Source: Stictocephala bisonia
Lineage: Eukaryota > Arthropoda > Insecta > Hemiptera > Membracidae
Reading direction: 5' to 3'
Length of the DNA: 64,000 nt
Assembly (NCBI GenBank): GCA_035578905.1
Contig: JAQJVL010000247.1
Coordinates: 434,001-498,000, forward strand
Shown here: positions 3,201-28,013 of the stretch, piece by piece
Layout: each line of letters begins with the position of its first letter
Position numbering within the stretch: the stretch's first letter is position 1
The notes under the pieces: model-generated
Databases searched by the model: none
What the model saw: only the letters and a program-made list of their open reading frames with translations
Told to the model about the DNA's origin: nothing
Program-made: the position numbers and the translations under genes

Positions 3201-3500
3201 TTTATATAACTAATAGTATGATGGCTATAATTTATATAACTAATAGTATGATGGCTATAATTTATATAACTAATAGTATGATGGCTATAATTTATATAAC
3301 TAATAGTATGATTGCTATAATTTATATAACTAATAGTATGATGGCTATAATTTATATAACTAATAGTATGATGGCTATAATTTATATAACTAATAGTATG
3401 ATGGCTATAATTTATGTAACTAATAGTATGATGGCTATAATTTATATAACTAATAGTATGATGGCTATAATTTATATAACTAATAGTATGATGGCTATAA
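3201..3500. repeat. 30-bp minisatellite, 10 units (copy 1)
   Basis: Ten units of exactly 30 bp containing ACTAATAGTATGATGGCT. Because 30 is a multiple of three, the array stays open in one frame and gives a repetitive 10-residue peptide. I read this as an artefact of the period, not a gene. Confidence 0.95.
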
Positions 3501-4060: not shown

Positions 4061-4222
4061 AACAAACCACAATGGCTAAACAAACCACCATGGCTAAACA
4101 AACCACCATGGCTAAACAAACCACCATGGCTAAACAAACCACCATGGCTAAACAAACCACCATGGCTAAACAAACCACCATGGCTAAACAAACCACCATG
4201 GCTAAACAAACCACCATGGCAA
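4061..4222. repeat. 18-bp minisatellite, 9 units (copy 1)
   Basis: Nine units of AACAAACCACCATGGCTA. Each contains an NcoI-type CCATGG palindrome. The period is a multiple of three, which explains the repetitive minus-strand ORFs. Confidence 0.95.
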
Positions 4223-7200
4223 AACCGGAAGCTAAGCAGGGGAGATGATGAATGCTCTTCCAACCAGGTTTAATCTCTTCTTATGATATCTTTTTTAAGT
4301 TAAATATCTTTAATCTCTAAAATGACAATGCAACCACAATTTCAATTGTTACATTAGTAAATTATTTTGAAATTGATTTGATGCCTATACTGCAATGATT
4401 TCGTTTAAACATACAACTTCCCAGTCATACTTTTAAAAAAGGTGGTTTCGGAACTCTGTGTTTTCAAAATAAACGGTAATAGAGGTAATAGATACTAATT
4501 TAATAAGTTTTACTCTCTAATACAATCACTGATGATTATGAATTAATTAAATTAAAATTTCTTTATCTAAACAGATCTCTTAGCTCAAGGTTATTTATAG
4601 GAAACACCATAAAGCATAGAACATATCAAGTCTCTTTGTTAAACAGGCAAATCTTTTAACGTACTAATCAAACTTATTTAACTTGTTTGCCTCTGAATAG
4701 GTTTACTCTTAGGCATTTTTGGAGCAAGAGACAAGGAGATAAACTCGGTTAACAAGCGATTCATCGGTCTTTTTATAAGTTTAAAAACCAGTTTTCGACT
4801 TGCGTTAAAGATATGTAGTACAACAAGACTTACGCAACTAAAAATGGACTTATAGATAAGTAAATTGTAAAAAAGTGTAAAAAATAGGGGTGTATTCAAA
4901 AAAAGATCTTAAGAGGGAACAAACCTTTCCCTTATATTTCCTTATTTAATTTGAACGCTGTACGTGTCAAGTATTAATAAAATTAAAGTTTGATTCCCCT
5001 AATTCTAGAGGAAAATATCTGTTAATTAATAATAATTGCTTAGAACAATTACAAAACAATCACCCCACCCCATGAGCAAGGCAACCGTATAACTACAATA
5101 AACTTAGTTATTTATTTATTTGGTAGAAAAAGAACGAAAGCTTTTGGTAAGATTACATTTTTGGCTATTGTATTTTAGTTTTTGAATATACAGTGATTTG
5201 AGAAATATATTTAATAAAAGTACAAAAAAAATATAATAATAATAAAAAGAAATTTGCTATTCAAATTCTTTCTTAAAAGAAAAATAGTACAATTAATTTC
5301 AAAGCAATTTTGTATTATCACTCTAGCCAATGGCTATTTGAGTGAAAAACTTAATATAAACAAACCTTTACTGATGTGTTGTTAAAAGAAGTATAAGTGT
5401 AGATTATTTTATATATTATTAATACTACTTTTACATTTAGTGGGAAGAGTTTTGTATACAGGATATCTTATAACAACAACACGAATAAATATTATGTCTA
5501 TAATCAATTAACAAATTAAGAAACAAACTAAACAGCAGTTTAAATAACTATATAAAGTAATAAAAGAATTTTATGAGCAAGATAACAAGGTGGTTGCGGA
5601 GTAGAATATATGGTGGCCCATTTAATAAATGGGTCAATAAAATAATTAGCTCAATAAAGATCCCAAGTTAACATGAGAATGTAAATTTCAAAGTGTTGTC
5701 GAATAGTTTAATCTAAACCTAGGCCTTCCATTATTTGAATAACATTTATTTGGAATAAAGTTTATGTAGAGAAACAAACTGTAATAATGTAGGATATAGG
5801 ATATTGGATCCATAGGGTTTGTCTAAGATTAGCCTAACTGTAATATGTTTGTAAAATTCAATTAATATTGTATTGATTTTTCTGTAAATGTTAACGGAGT
5901 TACCATACACTATAACTTTAGTAATAAATCATGAAAATCAGTAAACTTATAACAGTTAAACTTTAATTATAACTGGATTAGTGTACTTCGTACTTGTCCA
6001 TCTTCTTTAAAAAAAGCTTAAATAATTCTAATAATATGGAAATATTAGAGGAGGACTGCTTAATGTTAATGGATATAAATGAGACTATCATCCTTGATAA
6101 AGATATATGAAGTTAGGGAATGATTATAATTATGATGAGAGTAAATAAATTGTGACTGATGCCAAAAAATGAATTTCGTGTCTATATCGTCAAGGATACT
6201 CGTTAACAACGAAAGAATTAAAATAAAAAAATTACAAAAACAAACATACTTCAAATTAAATCAAATTCATTTCTAGAAATATTTGTGCTTTTGGGGAAAA
6301 ATTATCGGAAAATTAACTTGGAGTAAAGAAGGTAAGCAATAAGAAGGAAAATACGTTTCGGAAGGAATAAAAAGCGATTTAATCAATTCAAATAAGGCGG
6401 CATTCAGTTTGATAAAGGTTGTAAATCTAAGACGTCACCCTTGAGGCTTAACACTCTCCTGTAACCCCCAGGGTTGGCGACCGGAAGGCTGAGGAAAATA
6501 TAAAACTGGAACGTTTAGCATCTGCTTCTTTCTTAGCAATAAGTGAGATTCCAGATCCAACATTTAGCTTATTTAAACTTTTAATTAAGATTTTAGTTGA
6601 TTTATATTGTACTTATTTCACATAATGTAAGCCAATACATAAATGATTTCAAAGAACTAGCACAAACTTTCCCCCATATTAAACACTAAAAAATCAAAAA
6701 CTGAAAATTACCAGTTTGATTCCCAAATATGTTTTTTTGCCATATCTAAAAAACTAGTCAAGTTAGAGACATGCAGTTTTTCTAAAATATTTCGAATGGT
6801 AATTCACTGTACTTGTATGGACGGGCGGGTAGGTCAATACCACTGTACATGTATGGGTGGGCGGGCGGGTCAATACCACTGTACTATATGGGTGGGCGGG
6901 TGGGTCAATACCAGGGAATTTTGCATGGACGAACCTGAACTTATGCCAGTGTTATAGGCTATTTATATTGTTATTTTAAACACAACAATAAAGTCAAGTA
7001 CATACCTTGAGGTGCATAACTTAAGTTATTGTAAGTTTATTTAATCTTAACAATCAATTGAATTACAAGTGTTTTTGCAACGGTAATCATCTGATTACAT
7101 TTTTAAATGTGTACTGATTAAAGAGAATGAAAACTAGAAATTGAATTTGTACCATTTAAAATATATTTCCGCTATCAAATATATTTATAAATTATTTTAG

Positions 7201-7810
7201 TACCGCACTGAAGTTGATTCATTATTGCCTTAACATACTGTACATTCAGTGTAATTAATGCATTTATTAAATGTCAAATGAAATGTTTGGGTAACAATTT
7301 CAACTTGTTTACATTCAACAGAACAAACAAACAAATTAAAACAGTCTGGAATTATACTATTTTTGTTGCATAGGCAATCTGTTAAATCGTAAACATAAAA
7401 TGTTGTAATTAAGTTATGTAATTTTCCATACACTGTAAACAAATTACGTTTCTACGTAATACTTTGTTAATATTATTGCGGTATTAATTTTTGTATCTTA
7501 TAATTACAAAATATAAAGGAATACAAGCTTACCTTTTTATGAATATGTACTATTAACACATTTAATCTATACAGAAGAGAATATTTTTCGTTTATATAAC
7601 TAATATTATGATGGCTATAATTTATATAACTAATAGTATGATGGCTATAATTTATATAACTAATAGTATGATGGCTATAGTTTATATAACTTATTAGTTA
7701 TATAAATTCTAATAAATTATATATATAAATTATAGCCATCATACTATTAGTATGATGGCTATAATTTATATAAGTAATAGTATGATGAGTTATATTATAT
7801 AACTCATATA

Positions 7811-7862
<52 letters not shown>

Positions 7863-8147
7863 TGATGAGTTATATAGTGGTATTGAGGGAGAAAAATGGT
7901 GATTCTCCCACCCGCCCACCCATACACGTACTGTGGTAATTACACGTACTGTTTAGTTACAACTCGCAGTAAAATCTAATATTTTTAACAATATCGGCAG
8001 CTGTTACAAAGTTATTTATTTATTTTTGTTAAATCTGATAGTTACGTACAATGGTACTAACCTACCCACACACCCATACACGTACAATGGTACTATAACT
8101 ATTAGATATGGTAATAGTAGCTATAACTATTAGATATATTATAGAAA

Positions 8148-8447
8148 TTTATATAACTAATAGTATGATGGCTATAATTTATATAACTAATAGTATGATG
8201 GCTATAATTTATATAACTAATAGTATGATGGCTATAATTTATATAACTAATAGTATGATTGCTATAATTTATATAACTAATAGTATGATGGCTATAATTT
8301 ATATAACTAATAGTATGATGGCTATAATTTATATAACTAATAGTATGATGGCTATAATTTATGTAACTAATAGTATGATGGCTATAATTTATATAACTAA
8401 TAGTATGATGGCTATAATTTATATAACTAATAGTATGATGGCTATAA
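8148..8447. repeat. 30-bp minisatellite, 10 units (copy 2)
   Basis: Same array as 3201-3500, including the ATGATTGCT variant in its fourth unit that copy 3 lacks. Confidence 0.95.
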
Positions 8448-9007
8448 TTTCAATAATAAACTCTATTACTATTTTAAGAGCAATAAATGTACTTAAAACA
8501 TAAAAAATTTATTAAAAAAATGAACTAATTTTACACAAAACCTAAAATTAAAATTGAATATTAGTTGTATACAAATCTTAGTGATTTCTTTATTTCGAAT
8601 TTTGCTTATTTATAACTAATCTAAATGATAATATTTTCTAGTCTTTTCCGTAATTATTTTATATTTAGTATTTTTGTAATTATTAATAGAATTGAAATTA
8701 CAAGCACATTATTCGTATAATTTTAATACATTCTGGTCAGTTAGTAATTTGTTTTATATTGTAATTGTTTATACTTTTTTTTTTATAAACTTATGTACAT
8801 TGAACCAATTTTGAAAAATATTGTAAAGAAAAGATTTAATGAATAACATAATACACTTGATTTTTTAACCATGAAATATAACTTGTATTCTATTATTATT
8901 TAATACTAAATATTTATTTTGAGAAATAAACTGAAACTTTGGAGATGAAATATGAAGAAACATAAATGAAGGCGAAAATAACCTGAAGAAATCTTTCTTT
9001 CTAAATA

Positions 9008-9169
9008 AACAAACCACAATGGCTAAACAAACCACCATGGCTAAACAAACCACCATGGCTAAACAAACCACCATGGCTAAACAAACCACCATGGCTAAAC
9101 AAACCACCATGGCTAAACAAACCACCATGGCTAAACAAACCACCATGGCTAAACAAACCACCATGGCAA
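9008..9169. repeat. 18-bp minisatellite, 9 units (copy 2)
   Basis: Identical layout to 4061-4222, including the ACAATGG variant of the first unit. Confidence 0.95.
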
Positions 9170-12100
9170 AACCGGAAGCTAAGCAGGGGAGATGATGAAT
9201 GCTCTTCCAACCAGGTTTAATCTCTTCTTATGATATCTTTTTTAAGTTAAATATCTTTAATCTCTAAAATGACAATGCAACCACAATTTCAATTGTTACA
9301 TTAGTAAATTATTTTGAAATTGATTTGATGCCTATACTGCAATGATTTCGTTTAAACATACAACTTCCCAGTCATACTTTTAAAAAAGGTGGTTTCGGAA
9401 CTCTGTGTTTTCAAAATAAACGGTAATAGAGGTAATAGATACTAATTTAATAAGTTTTACTCTCTAATACAATCACTGATGATTATGAATTAATTAAATT
9501 AAAATTTCTTTATCTAAACAGATCTCTTAGCTCAAGGTTATTTATAGGAAACACCATAAAGCATAGAACATATCAAGTCTCTTTGTTAAACAGGCAAATC
9601 TTTTAACGTACTAATCAAACTTATTTAACTTGTTTGCCTCTGAATAGGTTTACTCTTAGGCATTTTTGGAGCAAGAGACAAGGAGATAAACTCGGTTAAC
9701 AAGCGATTCATCGGTCTTTTTATAAGTTTAAAAACCAGTTTTCGACTTGCGTTAAAGATATGTAGTACAACAAGACTTACGCAACTAAAAATGGACTTAT
9801 AGATAAGTAAATTGTAAAAAAGTGTAAAAAATAGGGGTGTATTCAAAAAAAGATCTTAAGAGGGAACAAACCTTTCCCTTATATTTCCTTATTTAATTTG
9901 AACGCTGTACGTGTCAAGTATTAATAAAATTAAAGTTTGATTCCCCTAATTCTAGAGGAAAATATCTGTTAATTAATAATAATTGCTTAGAACAATTACA
10001 AAACAATCACCCCACCCCATGAGCAAGGCAACCGTATAACTACAATAAACTTAGTTATTTATTTGGTAGAAAGAGAACGAAAGCTTTTGGTAAGATTACA
10101 TTTTTGGTTATTGTATTTTAGTTTTTGAATATACAGTGATTTGAGAAATATATTTAATAAAAGTAAAAAAATAACAATAATAATAAACAGAAATGTGTTA
10201 TTCAAATTCTTTCTTTAAAAAAGTACAATTAATTTCAAAGCAGTTTTGTATTATCACTCTAGCCAATGGCTATTTGAGTGAAAAACTTAATATAAACAAA
10301 CCTTTACTGATGTATTGTTAAAAGAAGTATAAGTATAGATTATTTTATATATTATTAATACTACTTTTACATTTAGTGGGAACAGTTTTGTATACAGGAT
10401 ATCTTATAACAACAACACGAATAAATATTATGTCTATAATCAATTAACAAATTAAGAAATAATCTAAACAGTAGTTTAAATAACTATATAAAGTAATAAA
10501 AGAATTTTATGAGCAAGATAACAAGGTGGTTGTGGAGTAGAATAGATGGTGGCCCATTTAATAAATGGGCCAATAAAATAATTAGCTCAATATGGATCCC
10601 AAGTTAACATGAGAATGTAAATTTCAAAGTGTTGTCGAATAGTTAAATCTAAACCTAGGCCTTCCATTATTTGAATAACATTTATTTGGAATAAAGTTTA
10701 TGTAGAGAAACAAACTGTAATAATGTAGGATATAGGATATTGGATCCATAGGGTTTGTCTAAGATTAGCCTAACTGTAATATGTTTGTAAAATTCAATTA
10801 ATATTGTATTGATTTTTCTGTAAATGTTAACGGAGTTACCATACACTATAACTTTAATAATAAATCATGAAAATCAGTAAACTTATAACAGTTAAACTTT
10901 AATTATAACTGGATTAGTGTACTTCGTACTTGTCCATCTTCTTTAAAAAAAGCTTAAATAATTCTAATAATATGGAAATATTAGAGGAGGACTGCTTAAT
11001 GTTAATGGATATAAATGAGACTATCATCCTTGATAAAGATATATGAAGTTAGGGAATGATTATAATTATGATGAGAGTAAATAAATTGTGACTGATGCCA
11101 AAAAATGAATTTCGTGTCTATATCGTCAAGGATACTCGTTAACAACGAAAGAATTAAAATAAAAAAATTACAAAAACAAACATACTTCAAATTAAATCAA
11201 ATTCATTTCTAGAAATATTTGTGCTTTTGGGGAAAAATTATCGGAAAATTAACTTGGAGTAAAGAAGGTAAGCAATAAGAAGGAAAATACGTTTCGGAAG
11301 GAATAAAAAGCGATTTAATCAATTCAAATAAGGCGGCATTCAGTTTGATAAAGGTTGTAAATCTAAGACGTCACCCTTGAGGCTTAACACTCTCCTGTAA
11401 CCCCCAGGGTTGGCGACCGGAAGGCTGAGGAAAATATAAAACTGGAACGTTTAGCATCTGCTTCTTTCTTAGCAATAAGTGAGATTCCAGATCCAACATT
11501 TAGCTTATTTAAACTTTTAATTAAGATTTTAGTTGATTTATATTGTACTTATTTCACATAATGTAAGCCAATACATAAATGATTTCAAAGAACTAGCACA
11601 AACTTTCCCCCATATTAAACACTAAAAAATCAAAAACTGAAAATTACCAGTTTGATTCCCAAATATGTTTTTTTGCCATATCTAAAAAACTAGTCAAGTT
11701 AGAGACATGCAGTTTTTCTAAAATATTTCGAATGGTAATTCACTGTACTTGTATGGACGGGCGGGTAGGTCAATACCACTGTACATGTATGGGTGGGCGG
11801 GCGGGTCAATACCACTGTACTATATGGGTGGGCGGGTGGGTCAATACCAGGGAATTTTGCATGGACGAACCTGAACTTATGCCAGTGTTATAGGCTATTT
11901 ATATTGTTATTTTAAACACAACAATAAAGTCAAGTACATACCTTGAGGTGCATAACTTAAGTTATTGTAAGTTTATTTAATCTTAACAATCAATTGAATT
12001 ACAAGTGTTTTTGCAACGGTAATCATCTGATTACATTTTTAAATGTGTACTGATTAAAGAGAATGAAAACTAGAAATTGAATTTGTACCATTTAAAATAT

Positions 12101-12746
12101 ATTTCCGCTATCAAATATATTTATAAATTATTTTAGTACCGCACTGAAGTTGATTCATTATTGCCTTAACATACTGTACATTCAGTGTAATTAATGCATT
12201 TATTAAATGTCAAATGAAATGTTTGGGTAACAATTTCAACTTGTTTACATTCAACAGAACAAACAAACAAATTAAAACAGTCTGGAATTATACTATTTTT
12301 GTTGCATAGGCAATCTGTTAAATCGTAAACATAAAATGTTGTAATTAAGTTATGTAATTTTCCATACACTGTAAACAAATTACGTTTCTACGTAATACTT
12401 TGTTAATATTATTGCGGTATTAATTTTTGTATCTTATAATTACAAAATATAAAGGAATACAAGCTTACCTTTTTATGAATATGTACTATTAACACATTTA
12501 ATCTATACAGAAGAGAATATTTTTCGTTTATATAACTAATATTATGATGGCTATAATTTATATAACTAATAGTATGATGGCTATAATTTATATAACTAAT
12601 AGTATGATGGCTATAGTTTATATAACTTATTAGTTATATAAATTCTAATAAATTATATATATAAATTATAGCCATCATACTATTAGTATGATGGCTATAA
12701 TTTATATAAGTAATAGTATGATGAGTTATATTATATAACTCATATA

Positions 12747-12784
<38 letters not shown>

Positions 12785-13069
12785 TGATGAGTTATATAGT
12801 GGTATTGAGGGAGAAAAATGGTGATTCTCCCACCCGCCCACCCATACACGTACTGTGGTAATTACACGTACTGTTTAGTTACAACTCGCAGTAAAATCTA
12901 ATATTTTTAACAATATCGGCAGCTGTTACAAAGTTATTTATTTATTTTTGTTAAATCTGATAGTTACGTACAATGGTACTAACCTACCCACACACCCATA
13001 CACGTACAATGGTACTATAACTATTAGATATGGTAATAGTAGCTATAACTATTAGATATATTATAGAAA

Positions 13070-13369
13070 TTTATATAACTAATAGTATGATGGCTATAAT
13101 TTATATAACTAATAGTATGATGGCTATAATTTATATAACTAATAGTATGATGGCTATAATTTATATAACTAATAGTATGATGGCTATAATTTATATAACT
13201 AATAGTATGATGGCTATAATTTATATAACTAATAGTATGATGGCTATAATTTATATAACTAATAGTATGATGGCTATAATTTATGTAACTAATAGTATGA
13301 TGGCTATAATTTATATAACTAATAGTATGATGGCTATAATTTATATAACTAATAGTATGATGGCTATAA
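13070..13369. repeat. 30-bp minisatellite, 10 units (copy 3)
   Basis: As in the other copies, but all ten units carry ATGATGGCT, so the fourth-unit variant is absent. Confidence 0.95.
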
Positions 13370-13929
13370 TTTCAATAATAAACTCTATTACTATTTTAAG
13401 AGCAATAAATGTAGTTAAAACATGAAAAATTTATTTAAAAAATGAACTAATTTTACACAAAACCTAAAATTAAAATTGAATATTACTTGTATACAAATCT
13501 TAGTGATTTCTTTATTTCGAATTTTGCTTATTTATAACTAATCTAAATGATAACATTTTCTAGTATTTTACGTAATTATTTTATATTTAGTATTTTTGTA
13601 ATTATTAATAGAATTGAAATTACAAGCACATTATTCGTATAATTTTAATACATTCTGGTCAGTTAGTAATTTGTTTTATATTGTAATTGTTTATACTTTT
13701 TTTTTTATAAACTTATGTACATTGAACCAATTTTGAAAAATATTGTAAAGAAAAGATTTAATGAATAACATAATACACTTGATTTTTTAACCATGAAATA
13801 TAACTTGTATTCTATTATTATTTAATACTAAATATTTATTTTGAGAAATAAACTGAAACTTTGGAGATGAAATATGAAGAAACATAAATGAAGGCGAAAA
13901 TAACCTGAAGAAATCTTTCTTTCTAAATA

Positions 13930-14091
13930 AACAAACCACCATGGCTAAACAAACGACCATGGCTAAACAAACGACCATTGCTAAACAAACGACCATGGCT
14001 AAACAAACCACCATGGCTAAACAAACCACCATGGCTAAACAAACCACCATGGCTAAACAAACCACCGTGGCTAAACAAACCACCGTGGCAA
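13930..14091. repeat. 18-bp minisatellite, 9 units (copy 3)
   Basis: Nine units with private variants: ACGACCATGG in units 2-4 and ACCACCGTGG in the last two. These show independent drift in this copy. Confidence 0.93.
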
Positions 14092-16660
14092 AACCGGAAG
14101 CTAAGCAGGGGAGATGATGAATGCTCTTCCAACCAGGTTTAATCTCTTCTTATGATATCTTTTTTAAGTTAAATATCTTTAATCTCTAAAATGACAATGC
14201 AACCACAATTTCAATTGTTACATTAGTAAATTATTTTGAAATTGATTTGATGCCTATACTGCAATGATTTCGTTTAAACATACAACTTCCCAGTCATACT
14301 TTTAAAAAAGGTGGTTTCGGAACTCTGTGTTTTCAAAATAAACGGTAATAGAGGTAATAGATACTAATTTAATAAGTTTTACTCTCTAATACAATCACTG
14401 ATGATTATGAATTAATTAAATTAAAATTTCTTTATCTAAACAGATCTCTTAGCTCAAGGTTATTTATAGGAAACACCATAAAGCATAGAACATATCAAGT
14501 CTCTTTGTTAAACAGGCAAATCTTTTAACGTACTAATCAAACTTATTTAACTTGTTTGCCTCTGAATAGGTTTACTCTTAGGCATTTTTGGAGCAAGAGA
14601 CAAGGAGATAAACTCGGTTAACAAGCGATTCATCGGTCTTTTTATAAGTTTAAAAACCAGTTTTCGACTTGCGTTAAAGATATGTAGTACAACAAGACTT
14701 ACGCAACTAAAAATGGACTTATAGATAAGTAAATTGTAAAAAAGTGTAAAAAATAGGGGTGTATTCAAAAAAAGATCTTAAGAGGGAACAAACCTTTCCC
14801 TTATATTTCCTTATTTAATTTGAACGCTGTACGTGTCAAGTATTAATAAAATTAAAGTTTGATTCCCCTAATTCTAGAGGAAAATATCTGTTAATTAATA
14901 ATAATTGCTTAGAACAATTACAAAACAATCACCCCACCCCATGAGCAAGGCAACCGTATAACTACAATAAACTTAGTTATTTATTTGGTAGAAAGAGAAC
15001 GAAAGCTTTTGGTAAGATTACATTTTTGGTTATTGTATTTTAGTTTTTGAATATACAGTGATTTGAGAAATATATTTAATAAAAGTAAAAAAATAACAAT
15101 AATAATAAACAGAAATGTGTTATTCAAATTCTTTCTTAAAAAAAAGTACAATTAATTTCAAAGCAGTTTTGTATCATCACTCTAGCCAATGGCTATTTGA
15201 GTGAAAAACTTAATATAAACAAACCTTTACAGATACATTGTTAAAAGAAGTATAAGTATAGATTATTTTATATATTATTAATACTACTTTTACATTTAGT
15301 GGGAACAGTTTTGTATACAGTATATCTCATAACAACAACACAAAAAATATTATGTCTATAATCAGTTAACAAATTAAGAAATAAACTAAACAGCAGTTTA
15401 AATAACTATATAAAGTAATAAAAGAGTTTTATGAGCAAGATAACAAGGTGGTTGTGGAGTAGAATAGATGGTGGCCCATTTAATAAATGGGTCAATAAAA
15501 TAATTAGCTCAATAAAGATCCCAAGTTAACATGAGAATGTAAATTTCAAAGTGTTGTCGAATAGTGTAATCTAAACCTAGGCCTTCCATTATTTGAATAA
15601 AATTTATTTGGAATAAAGTTTATGTAGAAAAACAAACGGTTATAATTTAGGATATAGGATTTTGGATCCATAGGGTTTGTCTAAGATTAGCCTAACTGTA
15701 ATATGTTTGTAAAATTCAATTTATATTGTATGGATTTTTCTGTAAATGATAACGGAGTTACCATAAACTATAACTTTAGTAATAAATCATGAAAATCAGT
15801 AAAATTATAACTATTAAACTTTAATTATAACTGGTGTACTCGTCCTTGTCCATCTTCTTTAAAAAAAAGCTTAAATCATTCTAATAATATGGAAATATAA
15901 GAGGAGCACTGCTTAATGTTAATGGATATAAATGAGACTATCATCCTTGATAAAGATATATGAAGTTAGGGAATGATTATGATTACGATGAGAGTAAATA
16001 AATTGTGACTGATGCCAAAAAATGAATTTCGTGTCTATATCGTCAAGGATACTCGTTAACAACGAAAGAATTAAAATAAAAAAATTACAAAAACAAACAT
16101 ACTTCAAATTAAATCAAATTCATTTCTAGAAATATTTGTGCTTTTGGGGAAAAATTATCGGAAAATTAACTTGGAGTAAAGAAGGTAAGCAATAAGAAGG
16201 AAAATACGTTTCGGAAGGAATAAAAAGCGATTTAATCAATTCAAATAAGGCGGCATTCAGTTTGATAAAGGTTGTAAATCTAAGACGTCACCCTTGAGGC
16301 TTAACACTCTCCTGTAACCCCCAGGGTTGGCGACCGGAAGGCTGAGGAAAATATAAAACTGGAACGTTTAGCATCTGCTTCTTTCTTAGCAATAAGTGAG
16401 ATTCCAGATCCAACATTTAGCTTATTTAAACTTTTAATTAAGATTTTAGTTGATTTATATTGTACTTATTTCACATAATGTAAGCCAATACATAAATGAT
16501 TTCAAAGAACTAGCACAAACTTTCCCCCATATTAAACACTAAAAAATCAAAAACTGAAAATTACCAGTTTGATTCCCAAGTATGTTTTTTTGCCATATCT
16601 AAAAAACTAGTCAAGTTAGAGACATGCAGTTTTTCTAAAATATTTCGAATGGTAATTCAC

Positions 16661-18038: not shown

Positions 18039-19791
18039 TTAAATGAGCGTATAGTACATGATTTGATGGTACAATTTAGGGCCGAAATAAGAAAAACTCC
18101 GTCTCCCAACTTCTAAACGGACCTTAGGGAAATGGAGCAAATTTGCATGGCGTGTACTACGCTGCGAGACCTCTTCCCGGTGTAACAGCCTTTCGCTTAA
18201 GTACTGTGGCTCACTGTGTGACAGTACCTTGTGAGTCATGCAGCAAGTTAGAATCCTGCATACGGTCTCCATTGGCAGTAAACCAACAGCCTCTCGAAAA
18301 GGAGAAACATGATCAAAACGTCTCAAATTGAAAATGAAACGGACTGCAGAGTTTTGAAGCTTTTGAATTCGCTCCATATCTCCACACGAGATGCTGTTAC
18401 CGTATGCAGGGTAGCAGTAGTAAAATACTGACAAAATCAGTGACTGCATTATGTGAAACTTAGCGGATTCTGGTAGCAGTTCTCTAAAACGATACAGACC
18501 TCTCAGCCTACCTAGTGCACGTTGTGCAGAGTAAGTGACATGCTCAGTGAAAGTCAGGTCATTGTCTAGCACGACACCGAGAGTTTTGACTTTGCCGCTT
18601 ACAGCCAAGCTTACACCACTGAGCATGATCTCAATGTCCCTTGAGCTAAGGGACTGCACCAGAGTCTGAGGGGCAAAATGGAGAACGGTACACTTGTCTA
18701 TATTGAGTTTTAGGCTATTATTTACGGACCAGGTGGTAATGCTTTCAAGATCCGAATTAATTAGCATGAAGGCCTCCTCAATTGAGCCAGGCTCGTATGA
18801 CAAGTGTAGCTGACAATCATCTGCATACAAATGAGCAGTGCAGCTTTGTACACATTCGGGCAGGTCACATGTGTACAAATTGAAAAGTATAGGACCAAGA
18901 CAGCTACCCTGAGGTACACCTCGATGTCTATTAAGAGGAATGGATGTCTCACATCCCAGCTTTGTAACCTGGCTTCTATTTTCAAGGTATGACTTCACCC
19001 ACTCGATAGCATCTGCACCAAAGCCACAAAAATTCATTTTCGCAGCCAGCAACTTTTGGTTCATGGAATCAAAGGCTTGAGAATAATCAAGCAGAACCAG
19101 TGAACTGTATCTTCCATTATCTTTACTATCAAACAGGTCACTAAATAAGTTTACCAGGGCAGTGCATGTGCTATGGCTTTTCCTGAACCCAGATTGTGTT
19201 TTCGGCAAAATATTTTCTTTGTCCATATATTCTACAATCTGTCGAGTTACAACTTTTTCTAATATCTTTGACATCGCAGGCAGTATCGAGATGGGTCTTA
19301 ATTGTTGGACACTTTTAGGGGCTGTCACTTTCGGTATGGGATGCACAATGCTCGACTTCCAGCTCTGAGGAAACACCCCACTCAACAGGGACTCATTTAT
19401 GAGGTGTGTAATCGCATCCAGAACGTAAGGACTCACGGCTTTTATCTTTTGTATTGATAGTTTATCGCTACCAACCGCTCTTGATGTTATCTCGTCCATG
19501 GCTGATTGTACAACTTCATTAGTGACGGGCGTAAATGTAAATTCTGTCATCAGACCATTCCTCCTGTTTGTTTTGAAAAAATGTATGTCTTGTTCACTGA
19601 CTGGTTCTGCCACCCCCATTTCAACAAAGTATTTATTTATGTCATCTATATTGGTATAGGCAGGAATTGTTTCTCTCTTTCCACTATCAACAATATCACA
19701 CTGCTTCAGACAACTCCAGAAGTCTTTAGAAGTTTTCTGTGAGCTAAGTTTGTCATTAAAGTAGACATTAAAGTAATGTTCTACCAGTCTT
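18039..19791 (-). CDS. reverse transcriptase of LINE A, 5'-truncated and frameshifted at the C-terminus
   Basis: This encodes an RNA-directed DNA polymerase of a CR1/Jockey-like non-LTR retrotransposon. From the first Met at 19619 it runs 526 codons, and the frame stays open upstream to about 19791, adding ETIPAYTNIDDINKYFVE-type linker sequence. Visible RT motifs are LRPISILPAMSKILEK (about residues 107-122), LDYSQAFD (177-184, first catalytic Asp), GVPQGS (234-239) and YADD (265-268). The tail has the RFIFNLRRFDHVSPF motif shared with LINE C. The endonuclease is missing through 5' truncation. The C-terminus is broken: after FGPKLY the frame shifts at about 18065-18075, and the expected ending (IKSC...ELFVAK) is readable in another frame to a stop at 18005-18007. 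It is not expected to be active. Confidence 0.92.
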
Positions 19792-20961: not shown

Positions 20962-20987
20962 GACATAAGACATAAGACATAAGACAT
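20962..20987 (-). repeat. 3' terminal (ATGTCTT)n tail of LINE B
   Basis: Three to four units of the heptamer directly follow AATAAATGTCTT on the minus strand. This marks the 3' end of the element. Confidence 0.85.
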
Positions 20988-21112
20988 TTATTTCCAATTA
21001 GAATACAATGATGTACATAGGAATTGTCATTAATGATACATCCATCTGGAACAATACTTAATCAATAATAATATTCTAAAAATGTATTAATTAGTCCTAG
21101 TAAGTACAAAGT

Positions 21113-21420
21113 TTAAAATAATGGCCCTATTTCAGCATTCATGAACTCTTCTATTGAGTAAAAAGCGCTATCCATCAAAAGCCTCTTGACCTTCCTTAAA
21201 AATGATTTATCAAAATTGATGATTGTATTTTCTTTTATGAACTTATTTATTATTCTGCATGTTGTGTAATAAGTAGACCGCTCAAATTTACTGGTGCTGT
21301 GAGATGGGTAGTATATATAATGCTGTCTTGTGTTATAATTTGAATTATAAGGATTGCCAAATTTATTTTTATTTTTAATGTAATATTTACAAATTTCAAA
21401 AACGTATAGGCTTGGAAGTG
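21113..21420 (-). pseudogene. C-terminal remainder of LINE B ORF2 in a shifted frame
   Basis: Beyond the premature stop at 21421, the sequence stays coding-like in a neighbouring frame. It runs from the homopolymer at 21494-21500 to a stop at 21113-21115, about 125 codons. It begins AIRILFKKPLRYHCRS, the expected sequence after a LINE KIQKK motif, and ends NAEIGPLF. The tail lacks any zinc-knuckle pattern that I can see. It was separated from ORF2 by loss of one A, or by a base-calling error in the run. Confidence 0.85.
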
Positions 21421-24000
21421 TTAAGATTTTCCTTGATATAAATTCTGATCTACAATGATATCTGAGTGGCTTTTTGAATAATATCCTAATAGCTTTTTTT
21501 GTATTTTGAAAATCCTGTTAAAATGTTCTGCTCCCGTGCTTCCCCAAACGACTAATCCATAAGTAGCTAAACTTTGAAAATTAGAAAAATAGACTCTTTT
21601 AATTACATCATCAGATACACAATTAGATAAAACTTTCAGAGAAAAACAAACTGAATTAAGTCTTTTAGCCAAATAGTCAATATGCTTATAAAATGTTAAT
21701 TGTGGGTCTATATAAATGCCAAGGAATTTAGTAAATGGTTGTACGGTCAGATTTGTGTAGGGAGGAAATTTCAAATTAGATTTTGAAAAGTCTATTATAT
21801 GCGTTTTTGAAGGATTCAATTTTAGACCGTTGGCACCAAACCAATTATTTAAGCCCTCTAAACATTCAGTTACTCTACTGGACAGACACTGTGGAGTGAC
21901 GCTCCTCACTAGGGCTGAGGTGTCATCTGCATATTGCCATATATTGGCCATATTTACTTTTGAGTAAGAAGGAAGATCGGCCATAAAGATGATGAATAGT
22001 ATTGGCCCACAAATAGATCCTTGAGGACACCCCACAAGACTTTTTTTCCAGTGTGAGTAATACGTTCCTTTTTCGTCGTCAACAATTACTCTCTGATATC
22101 TGTCACTAAAGTATGAACTAAACAATTTTTTCGAAATACCACGAATACCATATCTGTCCATTTTTTCAATCAAGATACTTCTACTCATAGTATCGAAGGC
22201 TTTCGTTAAGTCGCAAAAGACGCCCGCTGACGGCAGCCTGCTTTCAAGTCCATTGTGAACCATATCAGTGAATTTAAGTATTGCGTCGACAGTGGCTAAG
22301 TTTTCCCGGAACCCATACTGTTCTTTATTGATTATATTATGTTTTGCAAGAAATGGGAGCAATCGATTTAAAATTAAACGTTCCAATATATTGGAAAAAA
22401 TTGGCTGTAAAGATATAGGGCGGAAATTATCAAGATCAGTATCATTTTTCTTTTTAATAGGTTTTATGACCGAATATTTGGCCAATTTTGGAAACACCCC
22501 TAAGGAAAGTGAATAATTGAAAATGTAAGTTAAGTGAGGTGCAATGATGGTTGATATATGCTTGACAAGGAACATCGGAATTTCGTCCCATCCTGCCGAC
22601 CTTTTATTTTTAACCTTGCTGATAACAGAAACTACTTCACTGGTTTGGATTGGCCATAGGAACAGTGTTTCCTCTACCTTGTTACGGTACTCTTCGCAGG
22701 ATTTCATTGCGGCATTTAAGTTTGGGGACAAACTCAATCTATCCCTGACGGTAAGGAAGTGTTTGTTTAATAAATTAGCTGCCTCCGCTCCTAACTTAAT
22801 CAATCTATTACTATCTTTAATCTGTAATTTATCTAACATCACACTAGTATTAGGTTTCCCAAGTTCATTATTGATAATCTGCCAAGAGGCCCTTGATACA
22901 TTGTCAGCTAATTTTATTTTATTATTATTATACATAAGTTTTGCCATTTTAGTCACTTTTCTTAACTTATTTTTACATATTGTATATTTGTTTTTTAGAC
23001 TTGAATTATAAGGGTTGTGTTTTTGCAATACATGTAGGTTTCGTTTTTCAATACTTAGTTTAATAATATCATTAGACACCCATTCTTTTCTGGTAGATTT
23101 TAATTTTTTTATGAACGATCGTTTAGGAAAGTATTTGTTAAAATGTAATAAAAACGTCTCTAAAAATATTCTGTACAAGTCATTAACAAAAGAAATATCA
23201 CAATCACTGTTAGACACAGCATACAGTGCAGACCAGTTTTCCTCATTTAGGCTGTTGTGGAACAGCAAAATACTATTGTTAGTAAATTGTCTACAAGTAG
23301 ATATTCGTTTATGTGTTGTGTTGTTTATATTAAATTTCACCAGCACAGCTGAATGGTCGGATAAGCCAGGGTCAATTACATTAGAATTTGAAATTTTTAT
23401 ATTTATATTACAAAATATGTGGTCTATACAACTAGAGGAACTACTCGTCACCCTAGTTGGGACATTTATACATGAAATTAGGCCATATGAATTAATCACG
23501 TCTTGTAACTGTGTTGAATATTTACTATCCTTCAAAGTGTCAATGTTAAAATCCCCACCTAATATTAATTTCTTTTTTGAGTTGTTTGTATTTTTTGAAA
23601 CATTTTCCAGTAAATTTGTTAACTGAGTAAAAAATTGTTCATAATTCTTTGAATCTGGAATTCTATAAACGCATAGTATTAAGTAAGTATCATAATTTAA
23701 TTTTATTTCAGCGGCACAGACTTCAAAGGTTTGTTGGATAGCAAACTGTTTATATTCTATCATGTCAGATGCAAATGGCATTAATTCGCTGCTTAAGAGA
23801 ATGCAGGAGCCTCCACGATTGCGCGACTCTCTGAAATAACCGGAAACATAGCATAGACTGCTCCTATTTAAGTATTCTTTGTTTTCAAACTTTAGCCAAT
23901 GTTCGGTCATTAACAATATTTTTAAGGGCGAAGTGTTTTGTGTTAAAAATACGTCGAGTTCCTCTAGTTTATTATAAACCCCTTGAATATTATAATTCAC
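21421..24000 (-). CDS. LINE B ORF2: APE-type endonuclease plus reverse transcriptase
   Basis: This is the retrotransposition enzyme: it nicks target DNA and primes reverse transcription there. The 859 codons counted from 24000 start with GTG, not ATG. The frame is open upstream to a stop near 24107 with no ATG. Endonuclease motifs: NYNIQG (2-7), catalytic Glu in LLMTEHWL (E33), YRIPD (112-116), LILGGDFNID (145-154) and the terminal GLSDHSAV (212-219). RT motifs: FRPISLQPIFSNILER (526-541), FCDLTKAFD (595-603), GCPQGS (657-662) and YADD (690-693). The first ATG (residue 31) lies after the first endonuclease motif, which argues for synthesis by frameshifting from ORF1. A 1-nt loss in an A-run (21494-21500) replaces about 125 C-terminal residues with a short aberrant tail. 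Confidence 0.95.
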   Translation of the reverse strand: MNYNIQGVYNKLEELDVFLTQNTSPLKILLMTEHWLKFENKEYLNRSSLCYVSGYFRESRNRGGSCILLSSELMPFASDMIEYKQFAIQQTFEVCAAEIKLNYDTYLILCVYRIPDSKNYEQFFTQLTNLLENVSKNTNNSKKKLILGGDFNIDTLKDSKYSTQLQDVINSYGLISCINVPTRVTSSSSSCIDHIFCNINIKISNSNVIDPGLSDHSAVLVKFNINNTTHKRISTCRQFTNNSILLFHNSLNEENWSALYAVSNSDCDISFVNDLYRIFLETFLLHFNKYFPKRSFIKKLKSTRKEWVSNDIIKLSIEKRNLHVLQKHNPYNSSLKNKYTICKNKLRKVTKMAKLMYNNNKIKLADNVSRASWQIINNELGKPNTSVMLDKLQIKDSNRLIKLGAEAANLLNKHFLTVRDRLSLSPNLNAAMKSCEEYRNKVEETLFLWPIQTSEVVSVISKVKNKRSAGWDEIPMFLVKHISTIIAPHLTYIFNYSLSLGVFPKLAKYSVIKPIKKKNDTDLDNFRPISLQPIFSNILERLILNRLLPFLAKHNIINKEQYGFRENLATVDAILKFTDMVHNGLESRLPSAGVFCDLTKAFDTMSRSILIEKMDRYGIRGISKKLFSSYFSDRYQRVIVDDEKGTYYSHWKKSLVGCPQGSICGPILFIIFMADLPSYSKVNMANIWQYADDTSALVRSVTPQCLSSRVTECLEGLNNWFGANGLKLNPSKTHIIDFSKSNLKFPPYTNLTVQPFTKFLGIYIDPQLTFYKHIDYLAKRLNSVCFSLKVLSNCVSDDVIKRVYFSNFQSLATYGLVVWGSTGAEHFNRIFKIQKKLLGYYSKSHSDIIVDQNLYQGKS

Positions 24001-24016
24001 TATTGTAAGTTCAGAT

Positions 24017-24045
24017 TTACTCTTATTAGAGTTTATCCTAAAAAA
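24017..24045 (-). promoter_or_regulatory. candidate -1 ribosomal frameshift signal, ORF1 to ORF2
   Basis: In the ORF1 frame the minus strand reads GAC AAT TTT TTA GGA TAA. It contains the heptamer T TTT TTA (24039-24045), the same slippery sequence used at HIV-1 gag-pol. After a 6-nt spacer comes ACTCT-AATA-AGAGT, a 5-bp stem with a 4-nt loop. Slipping back one base at the heptamer enters the ORF2 frame, which is open through the endonuclease. No ATG lies in that frame between the preceding stop (about 24107) and ORF2. The stem is weak, so a larger downstream structure may contribute. Function is inferred. Confidence 0.75.
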
Positions 24046-26864
24046 TTGTCGCCTATAAAATTGACTTGGTCCGCTGCGGGTTTTCGGTAGTTGGCAGGTG
24101 GTGGCCCGTCAGTCAATGGTGGCTGGTCCCCGGTTGGACGGTAGTCAGCAGATGGTAGTTGTCCCAATGGTTGATACTGCTCTGAGGGTGGATTCTGAAC
24201 GATGGATAAACATTGACTTGGAGGCAGTGGAGGGAACTGGTCAGTAGAGTTGAGTTGGAGTTCAGGAGATTGAGCACTTAGTATAATATTACGCAGGATA
24301 TTTATAAATTCGTGGTGCTTAAGGCCATTTCGCAAGTTCCTCCTTGATCGCTCGTCCTGTACAATAATTCTTACTGCTGCGCCAGTTGCCTTTTGAAGCG
24401 CTACTATATTTTTCACAAACAGCTGAGGGTGTATGTTATCTCTCATACAACCAAGTGGGGAACAAACAAGTTTTTTAAACCCGCGATGTAGAACGTCCTC
24501 TGTTAAATGATCCAGTGCATTGTTGTAGTCTTCCTCTGTAGGTTTATCGCAATATTTTGGCTTTGTAATTAAACCATAAACAGCTGCTTGGTTTTTAGAG
24601 CGTTGTATGCACAGATAGTTGCTCACACACTCAGAGACCTTGGGGTGACCAAAACTCTTTCTAAATTTAACGGCCACACCTGCGCTCATCTGACGTTGGT
24701 CTCCAAAGTCCCCTGAGATGCAATGGGCGAACGCCACCTCAGGATCATGTTCATAAGTGTTTATAATGTCTGCCATGTCCGCTTCTATAATTTCGATCTC
24801 CTGCTTCCAAGGGGTCTCAATGTGAATATTTGTAAGTGGGTTATCCCCATCTTTAACCTGGATGGTTTCCGTTTCTGATGCCTCCACCAATACGGCCTCT
24901 GATTGAAGTTCCGTAGTAGTAAAAAAGTCCTGCACCATTGAGTTTGCCATGTTTATTATTTCCCTTGCTATATAACTCTTGCCTCTCTTGTTGATGTGCA
25001 GACCATGTTTAGTATGATAACTGCTCTGTAGAAGATATAGATCCAGTATCTTGATATTGGGTTGGTTGTAGGTTAGATTTCTTATCATTAAATTTGTATC
25101 CTTTATCAATTCATTAACATTACTATTTGCACTTAGATCATATCTATATGGAATTGTCGATAATATAATATTGGTGTGACTAAATAGTTGCAGTTGATCT
25201 TGTATATACTGGGAATATGTTTTTAAAAATAGTTGTTTATTTTTGCAAGTTTGCTGTGTTATATTATTAGTTCCCCCGATGACTACAACGCAGTCATTCT
25301 TTGACAATGTCTTGAATTCAGTGGAATTGGTTATGGAGAGCATTATTGGTTGGATTGTTGCACCGGGTTGACATATACCATAGATTTTATATTTTCCATC
25401 GTTCTCAAGTCCTAGGATGGTGGAGAGTCCTCTTCCTTGGCTATCACTCGCCACTGTTAATACATGTTTGTTTGGCTGTATGGCCATGAGTTCTTCTTGT
25501 AGATTTATTTTAGGCTTCAAGATGCTTCTCTTCACGTCCCTGGTGTTAATTTTACTGATAAGACATGGCGTATCATTAAAGACATTATTAAAATCGTCAT
25601 CAGTTGATTTGTTTAGGATTTCAAATCTGTTCTTCTGTCTTATCTCCTTTCCTCCATCACTAATTAAGCACCGTCTATGGACTGCCCTGTTCTTTTTTTT
25701 ATTTTTTACTAGTTTCCAATCTTGCGTGCGTAGTAGGGTTGTCTTTTTTGGTTGCCTATGGGTACTGGGTATGTTATCAGTTTTATTAATAATTAACTGT
25801 TGTCTATCTTGTTTTGCTTCATTAAACCATTTTAAGAAGGGAGTATCTTGATTGACCTTACAGTAGTGATTGGCTACATACTGCGTGTTTGCCAAGACAT
25901 GGATACCGCATTCAAACGATTTCTTTTGTTGAATGCATGGAATCTCTATAACATTGTTTGGTTGCACCCCCATATTTCTAGCAACTATCTCAGCGGAGAC
26001 TCTGTTTAATGGTTGCAAGGAGTCAAAATGATATGATTTATTGTGCCCTCTGTCAAAAATTAATAAACTCCAATGTGATCCACTGTCATCCTTTGCGGCA
26101 TCAGAACAATCACTTATGCACGCAAAGATGAATCGTCTCACCGGGGCAAATAAAAATTTGAAGCAGTCACTGTCATTTACAGTATCTGGCGTGGCAAATC
26201 GGATAGTTAGTGTTACTGACGGACCCAGGAACAAGATGTCATCACAGTCAATCGACTCGGAAATGGCAGTAAAATAATCATTAATTACTTTGTCCTCCAG
26301 CCACTTATTCCTATTCCAAGGATTAGTATTACACTTAATATATTCATTTTGGATAATTTCCAATTCAAGTTTTAGTTTTTGTATATCCCTGTATTTAGAG
26401 TTATCTTTTTTTATATATTGGGATTTAATATTTTTTATTTCATTTTGTAAGCACAGATTGTCTCTATTTAGTGAGTCACATTTATTATGAGAGTCTTGAA
26501 GTTCCCTCTTCAATTTTTGAATGTTATTATTTAGAGATATTTTTTCATCGTATTCCGCTTCTTGTATGTAAAATGATTTATTCATTTCCAGTTCTCTTTG
26601 TTTTTTTTCTAACCCTAATTTGGTACCTAGTGAAGCAATTTCCCTAAGTGATAAGTCAAGGTTGTTGGTTTTTTCCTCATTATCTAAGAGGGTCGTGTCA
26701 CATTGTTTTATTAGTAGTTTTATAGTACTAATAAGATTTAATAGGTCACTGTTGGGATAATTAGCTTTCAATTTATTTATTTCATAAGAGATCTGGGCTA
26801 TGTACTCCTCCATATGTTGACGATCATCAGAGCATTCCAAAACAAGGTCATCAAAATAACTCAT
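24033..26864 (-). CDS. LINE B ORF1: coiled coil, Ulp1-like protease, SGNH hydrolase and TARG1-like macrodomain
   Basis: A 943-residue ORF1 protein starting at ATG 26864. Residues about 60-175 are charged and heptad-rich, a probable coiled coil for self-association. Residues about 185-345 resemble C48 (Ulp1/SENP) cysteine proteases: His264 in SHWSLL, Asp281 in HFDSL, Gln313 and Cys319 in ECGIHVL, with the usual Gln-to-Cys spacing of six. Residues about 350-450 are basic. Residues about 465-640 form an SGNH hydrolase: Ser475 in SDSQGRGL, GGTNN (530-534) and HGLHINKRGK (620-629), with His where DxxH enzymes have Asp. Residues about 690-840 match the macrodomain of TARG1/OARD1: AHCISGD, SAGVAVKFRKSFG and SPLGCMRDN with Asp809. 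The last 70 residues are Pro/Gln-rich. Substrates are unknown. No zinc knuckle or PHD is visible. Confidence 0.85.
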   Translation of the reverse strand: MSYFDDLVLECSDDRQHMEEYIAQISYEINKLKANYPNSDLLNLISTIKLLIKQCDTTLLDNEEKTNNLDLSLREIASLGTKLGLEKKQRELEMNKSFYIQEAEYDEKISLNNNIQKLKRELQDSHNKCDSLNRDNLCLQNEIKNIKSQYIKKDNSKYRDIQKLKLELEIIQNEYIKCNTNPWNRNKWLEDKVINDYFTAISESIDCDDILFLGPSVTLTIRFATPDTVNDSDCFKFLFAPVRRFIFACISDCSDAAKDDSGSHWSLLIFDRGHNKSYHFDSLQPLNRVSAEIVARNMGVQPNNVIEIPCIQQKKSFECGIHVLANTQYVANHYCKVNQDTPFLKWFNEAKQDRQQLIINKTDNIPSTHRQPKKTTLLRTQDWKLVKNKKKNRAVHRRCLISDGGKEIRQKNRFEILNKSTDDDFNNVFNDTPCLISKINTRDVKRSILKPKINLQEELMAIQPNKHVLTVASDSQGRGLSTILGLENDGKYKIYGICQPGATIQPIMLSITNSTEFKTLSKNDCVVVIGGTNNITQQTCKNKQLFLKTYSQYIQDQLQLFSHTNIILSTIPYRYDLSANSNVNELIKDTNLMIRNLTYNQPNIKILDLYLLQSSYHTKHGLHINKRGKSYIAREIINMANSMVQDFFTTTELQSEAVLVEASETETIQVKDGDNPLTNIHIETPWKQEIEIIEADMADIINTYEHDPEVAFAHCISGDFGDQRQMSAGVAVKFRKSFGHPKVSECVSNYLCIQRSKNQAAVYGLITKPKYCDKPTEEDYNNALDHLTEDVLHRGFKKLVCSPLGCMRDNIHPQLFVKNIVALQKATGAAVRIIVQDERSRRNLRNGLKHHEFINILRNIILSAQSPELQLNSTDQFPPLPPSQCLSIVQNPPSEQYQPLGQLPSADYRPTGDQPPLTDGPPPANYRKPAADQVNFIGDNFLG

Positions 26865-26999
26865 GTTATTATTTAAAACAATTATACAACATCACAAGAA
26901 GTATATGTTATATATTTACATAGGTCTAGGGTCAATTAAAAATGTTTGTAAACTCCTAAAGAGAAAAAAAAAAAAAGAAAGCCGTGGTACTAATTACTC

Positions 27000-27140
27000 A
27001 GGAAAGATTTAAAATAAAATTCTGTATTCACAATTGAACTCGGCAAAAAGTCTGTCCTTATGGAAGGACTCGAACGCAGTTTATCGATAGACAGTTATCA
27101 GGCTTAGAGAACCCAACTCTACCGTCTCAGCCACGGAGAC
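27000..27140 (-). mobile_element. tRNA-derived SINE head
   Basis: On the minus strand the sequence starts GTCTCCGTGGCTGAGACGG, with a pol III A box TGGCTGAGACGG (27122-27133). Next come an anticodon-arm-like stretch and a B box, GTTCGAGTCC (27066-27075), in a tRNA-like arrangement at normal spacing. It resembles a type-II (Leu/Ser-like) tRNA but is degenerate and continues into non-tRNA sequence, so a SINE fits better than a gene. The 3' end is unclear; a T-rich run on this strand lies at about 26962-26975. Confidence 0.65.
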
Positions 27141-28013
27141 AAAGTTGAATAAACGACTTGGCTTGTTGATAAGGTGCTCCTATCAGAAGTTATGACAACG
27201 TGGACGTGTGCAGTAAAAGTCCAATCCTCGTTAGTGAGGTTAGTATTACACGATGCCAAAAGTACTTACTGTGTCACATTACAAACACACGGAACTATAT
27301 AAAAAACGTCGAGCACTCTAAAATAGATCAGCCGACCGGTTATTTACGCCACGAGAACACTATAACACATTAATAACATAATTAATCATGGAGCGTAGGT
27401 TCCTACGTGATCACCGTGTAGGCTCAGGCCTACCAACAATGTCTACCCAGTTGGAATATACAAGTTTTTACTTTACAAAAACCCCACTTAGCGTCCATTA
27501 AACATCACAAAGCACTCCATACGAATGTTTAATAATCAATACTCTAGTGACGTCATCACACTCTGATACAGAATATAACTGATAGTAAACCCGACATCGA
27601 CCGTGAGGGATTGTCCCGTTCACATTGATGTGATCAAATGGATTCGATGAAATTTAATATTCTGAGTAAATGGAGCCACCCCTTTCAAACCCCTCTCGAC
27701 CAACAGGGACGATATAAATATGATTTCCGCCATTTACGTTCGCTTATGGCCATTAATGTTTTATAAATTCTCTCCGCATCCCCTGATTTTTCTCCGCTCA
27801 CTGATGGTTAAGTTTAGTCAGTTGAAGTATTCATTTGATTTGGCTGTAACTTACTAACTAACCCTGTATTTGATTGATTAAAGGACTTTAACTGGTATTT
27901 TAATAATTATTTCATAAGATATTTCGTATTTAAATTTTCCTAGTTAATTTAATTGATGTTTAAATTTAAATTACATTAAGATATTTTTCGTTAGTTCACT
28001 TCCGTACCCATAA
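27141..28013. other. no recognised feature
   Basis: Mixed composition, with GC-richer patches near 27180-27270 and 27590-27800. No ORF above background and no repeat match within the window. Confidence 0.4.

Follow-up and report, generated by a model that had tools for sequence, protein, structure and literature searches.

A LINE ORF1 protein from Stictocephala bisonia that combines protease, SGNH hydrolase and macrodomain folds

Why would a retrotransposon carry three enzyme folds in a single protein? The question is raised by a 64,000-nucleotide stretch of DNA from the hemipteran insect Stictocephala bisonia (contig JAQJVL010000247.1, positions 434,001 to 498,000; hereafter the window), in which positions 24033-26864 of the minus strand hold a 943-codon reading frame, the first open reading frame (ORF1) of a long interspersed nuclear element (LINE). 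An earlier note, made from the sequence alone, had proposed that this ORF1 joins an Ulp1-like C48 protease, an SGNH hydrolase and a macrodomain, and that the three might act together against host control. Little is known about the tasks of ORF1 proteins other than RNA packaging, and, to our knowledge, few reports document enzymatic counter-defence by LINEs.

All three enzyme folds are visible in the AlphaFold 2 model of the protein, and sequence matches to PDB entries and fold matches agree with the model, which confirms that one LINE ORF1 holds them all. The protein is laid out as follows.

24033..26864, minus strand: ORF1, a triple-enzyme protein of 943 amino acids
26331..26822, minus strand: residues 15-178, helices (modelled at 15-35, 42-64 and 67-178), the third one 112 residues long (coiled coil)
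25830..26312, minus strand: residues 185-345, C48 (SENP8-like) cysteine protease, with H264, D281, Q313 and C319
25473..25829, minus strand: residues 346-464, basic disordered linker (linker 1), net charge +12, candidate RNA-binding arm (predicted local distance difference test score, pLDDT, mostly <50)
24930..25472, minus strand: residues 465-645, SGNH hydrolase, with S475, N533, H623 and the probable block-II Gly G501
24270..24797, minus strand: residues 690-865, TARG1-type macrodomain, with K768 and D809
24036..24269, minus strand: residues 866-943, Pro-rich disordered tail (pLDDT ~30-37; ratio of nonsynonymous to synonymous substitution, dN/dS, 0.72)

Among solved structures, the macrodomain fold matches TARG1 (Z 19.5, root-mean-square deviation (rmsd) 2.0, 136 aligned residues, ~26% identity in the aligned part), the SGNH domain matches an OatA-type fold (Z 18.1, rmsd 2.1, 150 residues), and the protease matches both NopD (Z 18.6, rmsd 2.7, 158 residues) and NEDP1 (Z 18.3, rmsd 3.6, 167 residues). 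Sequence search likewise places the macrodomain with TARG1/OARD1, giving the macrodomain of the earlier note a more specific type. A search with the macrodomain piece alone (32 candidates scored) found no cellular relative; it matched two proteins of 239 and 232 amino acids, 55% and 61% identical, that are probably fragments of related elements. Pfam alone detects no macrodomain in this copy and no SGNH domain above its cut-off, and a Pfam-only check thus loses two of the three domains. Pfam also gives no match at E ≤ 1 to an RNA recognition motif (RRM), CCHC knuckle or PHD finger, the marks of type I-III ORF1s, in the window ORF1 protein. The helical N-terminal region yields weak PDB profile matches to coiled-coil proteins, and our coiled-coil assignment derives from these matches and the modelled long helix rather than from a coiled-coil predictor. 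Linker 1 is net positive in 38 of 39 aligned proteins (median net charge +12), which makes it a candidate arm for RNA binding; the protein carries neither RRM nor CCHC. We regard this anatomy as a whole, a long helix, a basic linker and three hydrolase domains with conserved catalytic residues, as nearly certain.

Conservation of the catalytic residues was read from 39 aligned ORF1 proteins, of which 18 come from this genome and the other 21 from the window itself or public sets, with near-identical copies included and with P0002, P0023, P0024 and L001-L004 left out (P numbers denote the proteins found by the searches below, L numbers loci of this genome). The protease residues H264, D281, Q313 and C319 are kept in 38 of the 39, the exception being P0016, which lacks the whole domain. 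Thus the His-Asp-Cys triad, the oxyanion Gln and the fold that define C48 are all present. The protease proposed earlier therefore stands as a C48 enzyme, but PDB searches put Ulp1 itself further from it than NopD and the NEDD8 protease SENP8, which is its nearest solved relative. In the SGNH domain, S475, G531, N533 and H623 are invariant (39/39) and the probable block-II Gly, G501, is kept in 33; the Ser, Gly, Asn and His of the four blocks that characterise the superfamily are accordingly found. The fold and the Ser/Asn/His residues of the proposed hydrolase are borne out, but the usual triad Asp is missing and His620 stands in its place. The equivalent residue of the zebrafish ZfL2-1 esterase, D279, lies three residues ahead of the His (PMC3905857); this Asp is not among the residues that give the SGNH family its name. 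Macrodomain residues K768 and D809 are kept in all 39 proteins and align with Lys84 and Asp125 of TARG1 (counted by hand from the alignment, in chain numbering), residues that serve ligand binding and hydrolysis in that enzyme (PMC5087735). From these intact catalytic residues we predict that all three domains are probably active enzymes, each of which could be tested by a single substitution at a residue that can already be named.

The same architecture occurs elsewhere, as the earlier note would lead one to expect. A protein search and a profile search, each of which scored the ~8,000 candidates sharing the most words with the query, gave 15 and 18 matches and 23 different proteins. The triple-enzyme architecture recurs among these relatives, including P0021 (Homalodisca vitripennis J6590_056169), the only one of the 23 with a named source, which independently matches SENP8 (7.8e-18) and OARD1 (1.9e-6). 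One candidate, P0024, was excluded as probably unrelated (E 1.3e-4, 8% of the query covered). What varies is the N-terminus. P0015 and P0022 carry an N-terminal PHD finger (by Pfam in P0015; Pygopus-like by PDB match in P0022), and P0023, a 507-amino-acid piece that ends after the protease, has an N-terminal FLYWCH match just under the cut-off. P0016 combines a methyl-CpG-binding domain (3.7e-14), a coiled-coil-like region, an SGNH domain and a TARG1-type macrodomain without the protease, and may be a LINE ORF1 that seeks methylated DNA. The N-terminal part of ORF1 is thus exchangeable among relatives.

Selection on the individual domains was estimated as Nei-Gojobori dN/dS for 253 pairs, of which 31 fell within the chosen range of synonymous divergence. 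Twenty of these have dS 0.9-1.2 but amount to two independent comparisons, one between the L015/016/019/020/024/025 family and L021/022/023 (18 pairs) and one between L009/L010 and L012 (2 pairs). Across the 20 pairs, dN/dS is 0.10-0.11 for the protease, 0.13-0.16 for the SGNH domain and 0.08-0.14 for the macrodomain, as against 0.36-0.45 for linker 1 and 0.49-0.54 for linker 2. A third comparison, between the window element and the decayed copy L028, gives 0.14, 0.13 and 0.20 for the three enzymes, 0.54 and 0.44 for the linkers and 0.72 for the tail, with 0.157 for the endonuclease (EN) and 0.098 for the reverse transcriptase (RT) of the same element. These ratios are if anything too high, because synonymous sites are near saturation; for ORF2 of L009 and L011 dN/dS is saturated. 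The remaining 11 pairs are near-identical copies with too few changes for a per-domain reading, and it is among such pairs that single domains reach high ratios (for example, linker 1.68 and protease 0.80 in L021-L022; macrodomain 0.82 in L015-L025). By these sequence comparisons, then, all three enzyme domains are under purifying selection of the same order as that on the core enzymes EN and RT, and the selection anticipated for each domain (0.08-0.20 in three usable comparisons, with linkers at 0.36-0.54) is found.

The protein belongs to a complete element, whose further parts are these.

20962..27437, minus strand: whole LINE element, 6,476 bp (from the alignment ends of copies and the 3′ tail)
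26865..27437, minus strand: 5′ untranslated region, 573 nt (from the element 5′ end and the ORF1 start)
21421..24000, minus strand: ORF2, 859 codons, with endonuclease at about residues 1-219 and reverse transcriptase at 515-761 (Pfam)
21113..21420, minus strand: stretch that we take to resemble a LINE ORF2 C-terminus, in a frame that differs from ORF2 of this copy (three-frame translation)
20962..20987, minus strand: 3′ microsatellite tail (TTATGTC)n

The 5′ end is fixed by window base 27437, at which the alignments of L002, L003, L007 and the diverged L028 also start, with a different flank in each. At the 3′ end, the (TTATGTC)n tail at 20962 is common to the window copy and L030, and L029 stops three bases before it. 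ORF2 matches Exo_endo_phos (1.5e-9) and RVT_1 (8.2e-29), and an ORF2 match lies behind ORF1 in all 20 further loci, L009-L028. The triple-enzyme frame therefore precedes an ORF2 that encodes both endonuclease and reverse transcriptase and is the first ORF of a dispersed multi-copy element with fixed ends, as expected of an ORF1 from a LINE with an apurinic/apyrimidinic endonuclease (APE-type). The only hints that its RT might belong to the CR1/L2 clade are the 3′ microsatellite and the type of ORF1. Inspection by eye revealed no evident target-site duplication flanking the window copy, L002/L029 or L003/L030.

A search of the genome gave at least 49 ORF1 matches, a lower bound with 48 of 7,226 first-look candidates scored; 29 of the 49 matched stretches are free of stop codons and 20 contain one. 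Three copies, including that of the window, cover the full 943 residues with an identity of 99-100%; the matches of two more start at residues 3 and 56. Because such near-identical copies sit at different sites, the sequences suggest recent mobility. ORF2 of the window copy looks damaged near its end: the frame stops at 21421 and the C-terminus-like stretch continues in another frame (21113-21440). The gap between ORF1 and ORF2 is 32 nt, and the ORF2 frame opens with GTG directly after it (24000-24033 region), with no ATG listed as the first start codon. In L012, further ORF2-like matches on the same strand (9-1096 and 7806-8783) flank the element on both sides, indicating that LINEs are clustered there. 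Two more ORFs of the window match RVT_1 without an endonuclease match (18039-19619 and 50064-51797) and are probably pieces of other LINEs.

The histories of the two ORFs differ. Within ORF1, the domains tell the same history, as evident from Mantel correlations of 0.78-0.91 for six domain pairs in 28 proteins (those remaining after rows >85% identical and P0016 were dropped). Between ORF1 and ORF2, the histories disagree (r = -0.12, p = 0.71, nine families of this genome). L010 and L012, for example, are 69% identical in ORF1 (residues 187-865) but 28% in ORF2, and L016 and L021 are 71% and 31% identical, whereas L010 and L011 show the reverse, with 43% in ORF1 and 56% in ORF2. Nucleotide matches follow the same pattern: the single BLASTN match longer than 70 nt in each of L016/L021 and L010/L012 extends approximately from the ORF1 start to near the ORF1 end, while the only one in L009/L011 begins right behind ORF1 and runs on. 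The pairing of ORF1 with ORF2 in the multi-copy families (6, 3, 3 and 2 fetched copies) is not an assembly error, because their copies align through both ORFs together; L011, L012, L013 and L026 are single copies.

Supported trees concur with this discordance. The approximately unbiased (AU) test rejects, for ORF2, the L009+L012 clade (p 1.8e-23) and the L015/016/021/022 clade (p 0.0015), and, for ORF1, the L009+L011 clade (p 2.4e-7) and the L009/011/014/017/026 clade (p 7.6e-7). These clades were chosen after the identity table had been seen, and the tests used a plain LG+G4 model, not a mixture model; the program also issued a warning about long branches meeting, a concern chiefly for the test at p 0.0015. 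Judged from these sequences, the triple-enzyme ORF1 is exchanged between distant ORF2 lineages of this genome. Such exchange of ORF1 as a module adds to the reticulate evolution of ORF1 already proposed within the Jockey superfamily (PMC4120745).

What, then, would three enzymes do for the element? The explanation that we judge best, and to which we give slightly better than an even chance, is that this ORF1 of an APE-type LINE forms a ribonucleoprotein (RNP) equipped with three erasers, that the erasers form an exchanged cassette, and that the element most likely gains by escaping host control. The coiled coil would multimerise the ORF1 protein (ORF1p) and the basic linker would hold the element RNA, so that every RNP would carry many copies of the three enzymes. 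The protease would remove NEDD8, SUMO or ubiquitin, and the TARG1-type macrodomain ADP-ribose; their targets could be the RNP itself, silencing factors on element chromatin, or, where the target site is nicked, proteins and the ends of nucleic acids. The SGNH domain might act on an ester or on lipid membranes, in line with the proposal made for the ZfL2-1 esterase. Two of the three kinds of mark have reported parts in how transposition is controlled or proceeds. In Drosophila, a SUMO fusion restores silencing by SUMOylation-defective Panx (PMC13195609). TARG1 takes ADP-ribose off Glu/Asp, DNA breaks and RNA ends (PMC6582358), and PARP1/2 act at L1 integration sites (PMC8535693). We prefer escape from host control because three erasers, selection on each of them and a cassette that changes its ORF2 partner fit a general anti-host module. 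As the main role of the protein, counter-defence is nevertheless evenly balanced in our judgement. The earlier proposal that the protein edits SUMO/ubiquitin-like, ester and ADP-ribose marks against host control fits the intact catalytic residues and is to that extent partly supported.

Several observations weigh against counter-defence by three active erasers. One relative, P0016, does without the protease. SENP8, NopD, Ulp1 and SENPs all match the protease, which places its choice among ubiquitin-like proteins (Ubl) beyond the reach of sequence. The SGNH position of the absent triad Asp, H620, is His in 35 of 39 proteins and Ser, Leu or Asn in four, and this enzyme may be slow or binding-only. 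Loss of PARP1/2 is reported to lower human L1 retrotransposition (PMC8535693), and ADP-ribose removal is therefore not plainly helpful to a LINE.

The main rival, which we consider unlikely though well worth weighing, is that the enzymes serve the element's own cycle. The macrodomain might clear ADP-ribose from nicked ends and let target-primed reverse transcription go on, the protease might free ORF1p and ORF2p from conjugates that direct degradation, and the SGNH domain might dock RNPs on membranes. This accords with the action of TARG1 on ADP-ribosylated DNA and RNA ends (PMC6582358), the presence of PARP1/2 at L1 integration sites (PMC8535693), the binding of liposomes by the ZfL2-1 esterase (PMC3905857), and selection on all three domains comparable to that on EN and RT. 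However, it leaves unexplained why three separate erasers gathered in one protein, and it accounts for the swapping among ORF2 lineages no better than counter-defence does. That the protease instead cuts ORF1p into its domains, as in adenovirus, is improbable. The adenoviral endoprotease is a relative of C48 proteases, and P0014 weakly matches Peptidase_C5 (E 0.0015, under its cut-off), but Gly-Gly, the usual cleavage site of Ulp1-type enzymes, occurs in linker 1 of 5 of the 39 proteins and in linker 2 of none, and neither linker shows much conservation (pairwise identity averages 0.21 and 0.16). A self-processing protease was accordingly rejected, there being no conserved Gly-Gly in the linkers.

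It is likewise improbable that the domains are non-catalytic readers that target the RNP by binding Ubl, lipid and ADP-ribose. Macrodomains do include binding-only members. So does the SGNH fold, in the non-catalytic protein Oskar (PMC3905857), and the missing triad Asp points the same way. Yet Cys/His/Asp/Gln are kept in 38 of 39 proteins and Ser/Asn/His and Lys/Asp in 39 of 39, and a mere binder need not retain its nucleophile. There is a negligible chance that the protein stems from a gene of the host or from a chimeric assembly instead of a transposon, even though the Homalodisca vitripennis record of P0021 labels it a hypothetical protein: the copies are many, they have a 5′ end and a 3′ tail in common with different flanks wherever ends were compared, and an ORF2 match follows ORF1 in 20 of 20 loci (L009-L028). 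For the window element, shared ends in different flanks together with ORF2 behind ORF1 rule this origin out.

If escape from host control is the benefit, a broader proposal suggests itself, which we hold only tentatively. The protein would represent a new class of ORF1, a mobile cassette that erases ubiquitin-like, ester and ADP-ribose marks, that passes among unrelated LINE lineages within one host genome because it disables host defences whatever the RT, and that is docked on chromatin in relatives by exchangeable N-terminal readers (PHD, methyl-CpG-binding, FLYWCH). If true, transposons would have in it their own equivalent of the anti-PARP macrodomains and deubiquitinases of viruses. With a macrodomain in a retrotransposon, the arms race over ADP-ribosylation known from viruses would extend to transposons.

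The window also holds repeats away from the element. Three tandem copies of a ~4.95 kb unit, ~98% alike and each with short satellites of its own, occupy 1849-16660. A 57-bp satellite with 51 copies and 97% matches spans 55395-58310; the ORFs of 191 and 320 amino acids inside it probably result from the repetition itself, and a DUF4408 Pfam match there is probably spurious. Arrays of CCTAA/TTAGG, which we take to be the insect telomere repeat type, lie inside the contig at 40406-40758 and 43132-43181.

Parts of this protein have precedents. Esterase ORF1s, Ulp1-like proteases in NeSL/Utopia elements and PHD-bearing ORF1s are already known (PMC4120745, PMC3905857, PMC4640811). No LINE ORF1 described as bearing a macrodomain or a C48 protease was found among the best matches in the open-licence PubMed Central literature, represented mainly by titles and the openings of abstracts, with Repbase and its reports outside this scope; within the same scope, the triple-enzyme protein is a new ORF1 type. 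The closest known form is the type IV (esterase) ORF1 of CR1/L2 LINEs such as zebrafish ZfL2-1, in which a coiled coil is followed by an SGNH hydrolase without RRM or CCHC (PMC3905857, PMC4120745). The window protein has the same order, a coiled coil (the modelled long helix) and then the SGNH fold, and the ZfL2-1 esterase (4c1b) is a weak PDB match (E 0.005); it is not among the first 50 entries of the VIA-align fold list, which has no bearing on kinship. Unlike type IV proteins, the window ORF1 carries two additional enzyme domains and a His in place of the triad Asp. A 2014 survey places esterase-type ORF1s in the Jockey superfamily only in two vertebrate groups (PMC4120745), and a 2013 paper records the type in chordates, cnidarians and sponges, within CR1, RTEX and Penelope elements (PMC3905857).

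NeSL/Utopia LINEs likewise bear a C48-type protease, but there the Ulp1-like domain is N-terminal in a single protein that also contains RT and a restriction-like endonuclease (PMC4640811), whereas the window element has its protease in ORF1, beside the SGNH domain and macrodomain, and an Exo_endo_phos endonuclease. With SENP8/NEDP1/DEN1 and NopD, the best solved relatives, this protease shares its fold and the His/Asp/Gln/Cys residues at ~26% identity in the aligned part. The terminal ADP-ribose glycohydrolase TARG1/OARD1 differs from the macrodomain described here, which sits in a multidomain protein of a transposon and is ~26% identical to it. Viral anti-PARP macrodomains resemble it as ADP-ribosylhydrolase-type folds carried by mobile genetic elements, but those tested in the work cited are MACROD-like and come from RNA viruses (PMC6582358), whereas that of the window element is TARG1-like and belongs to a LINE.

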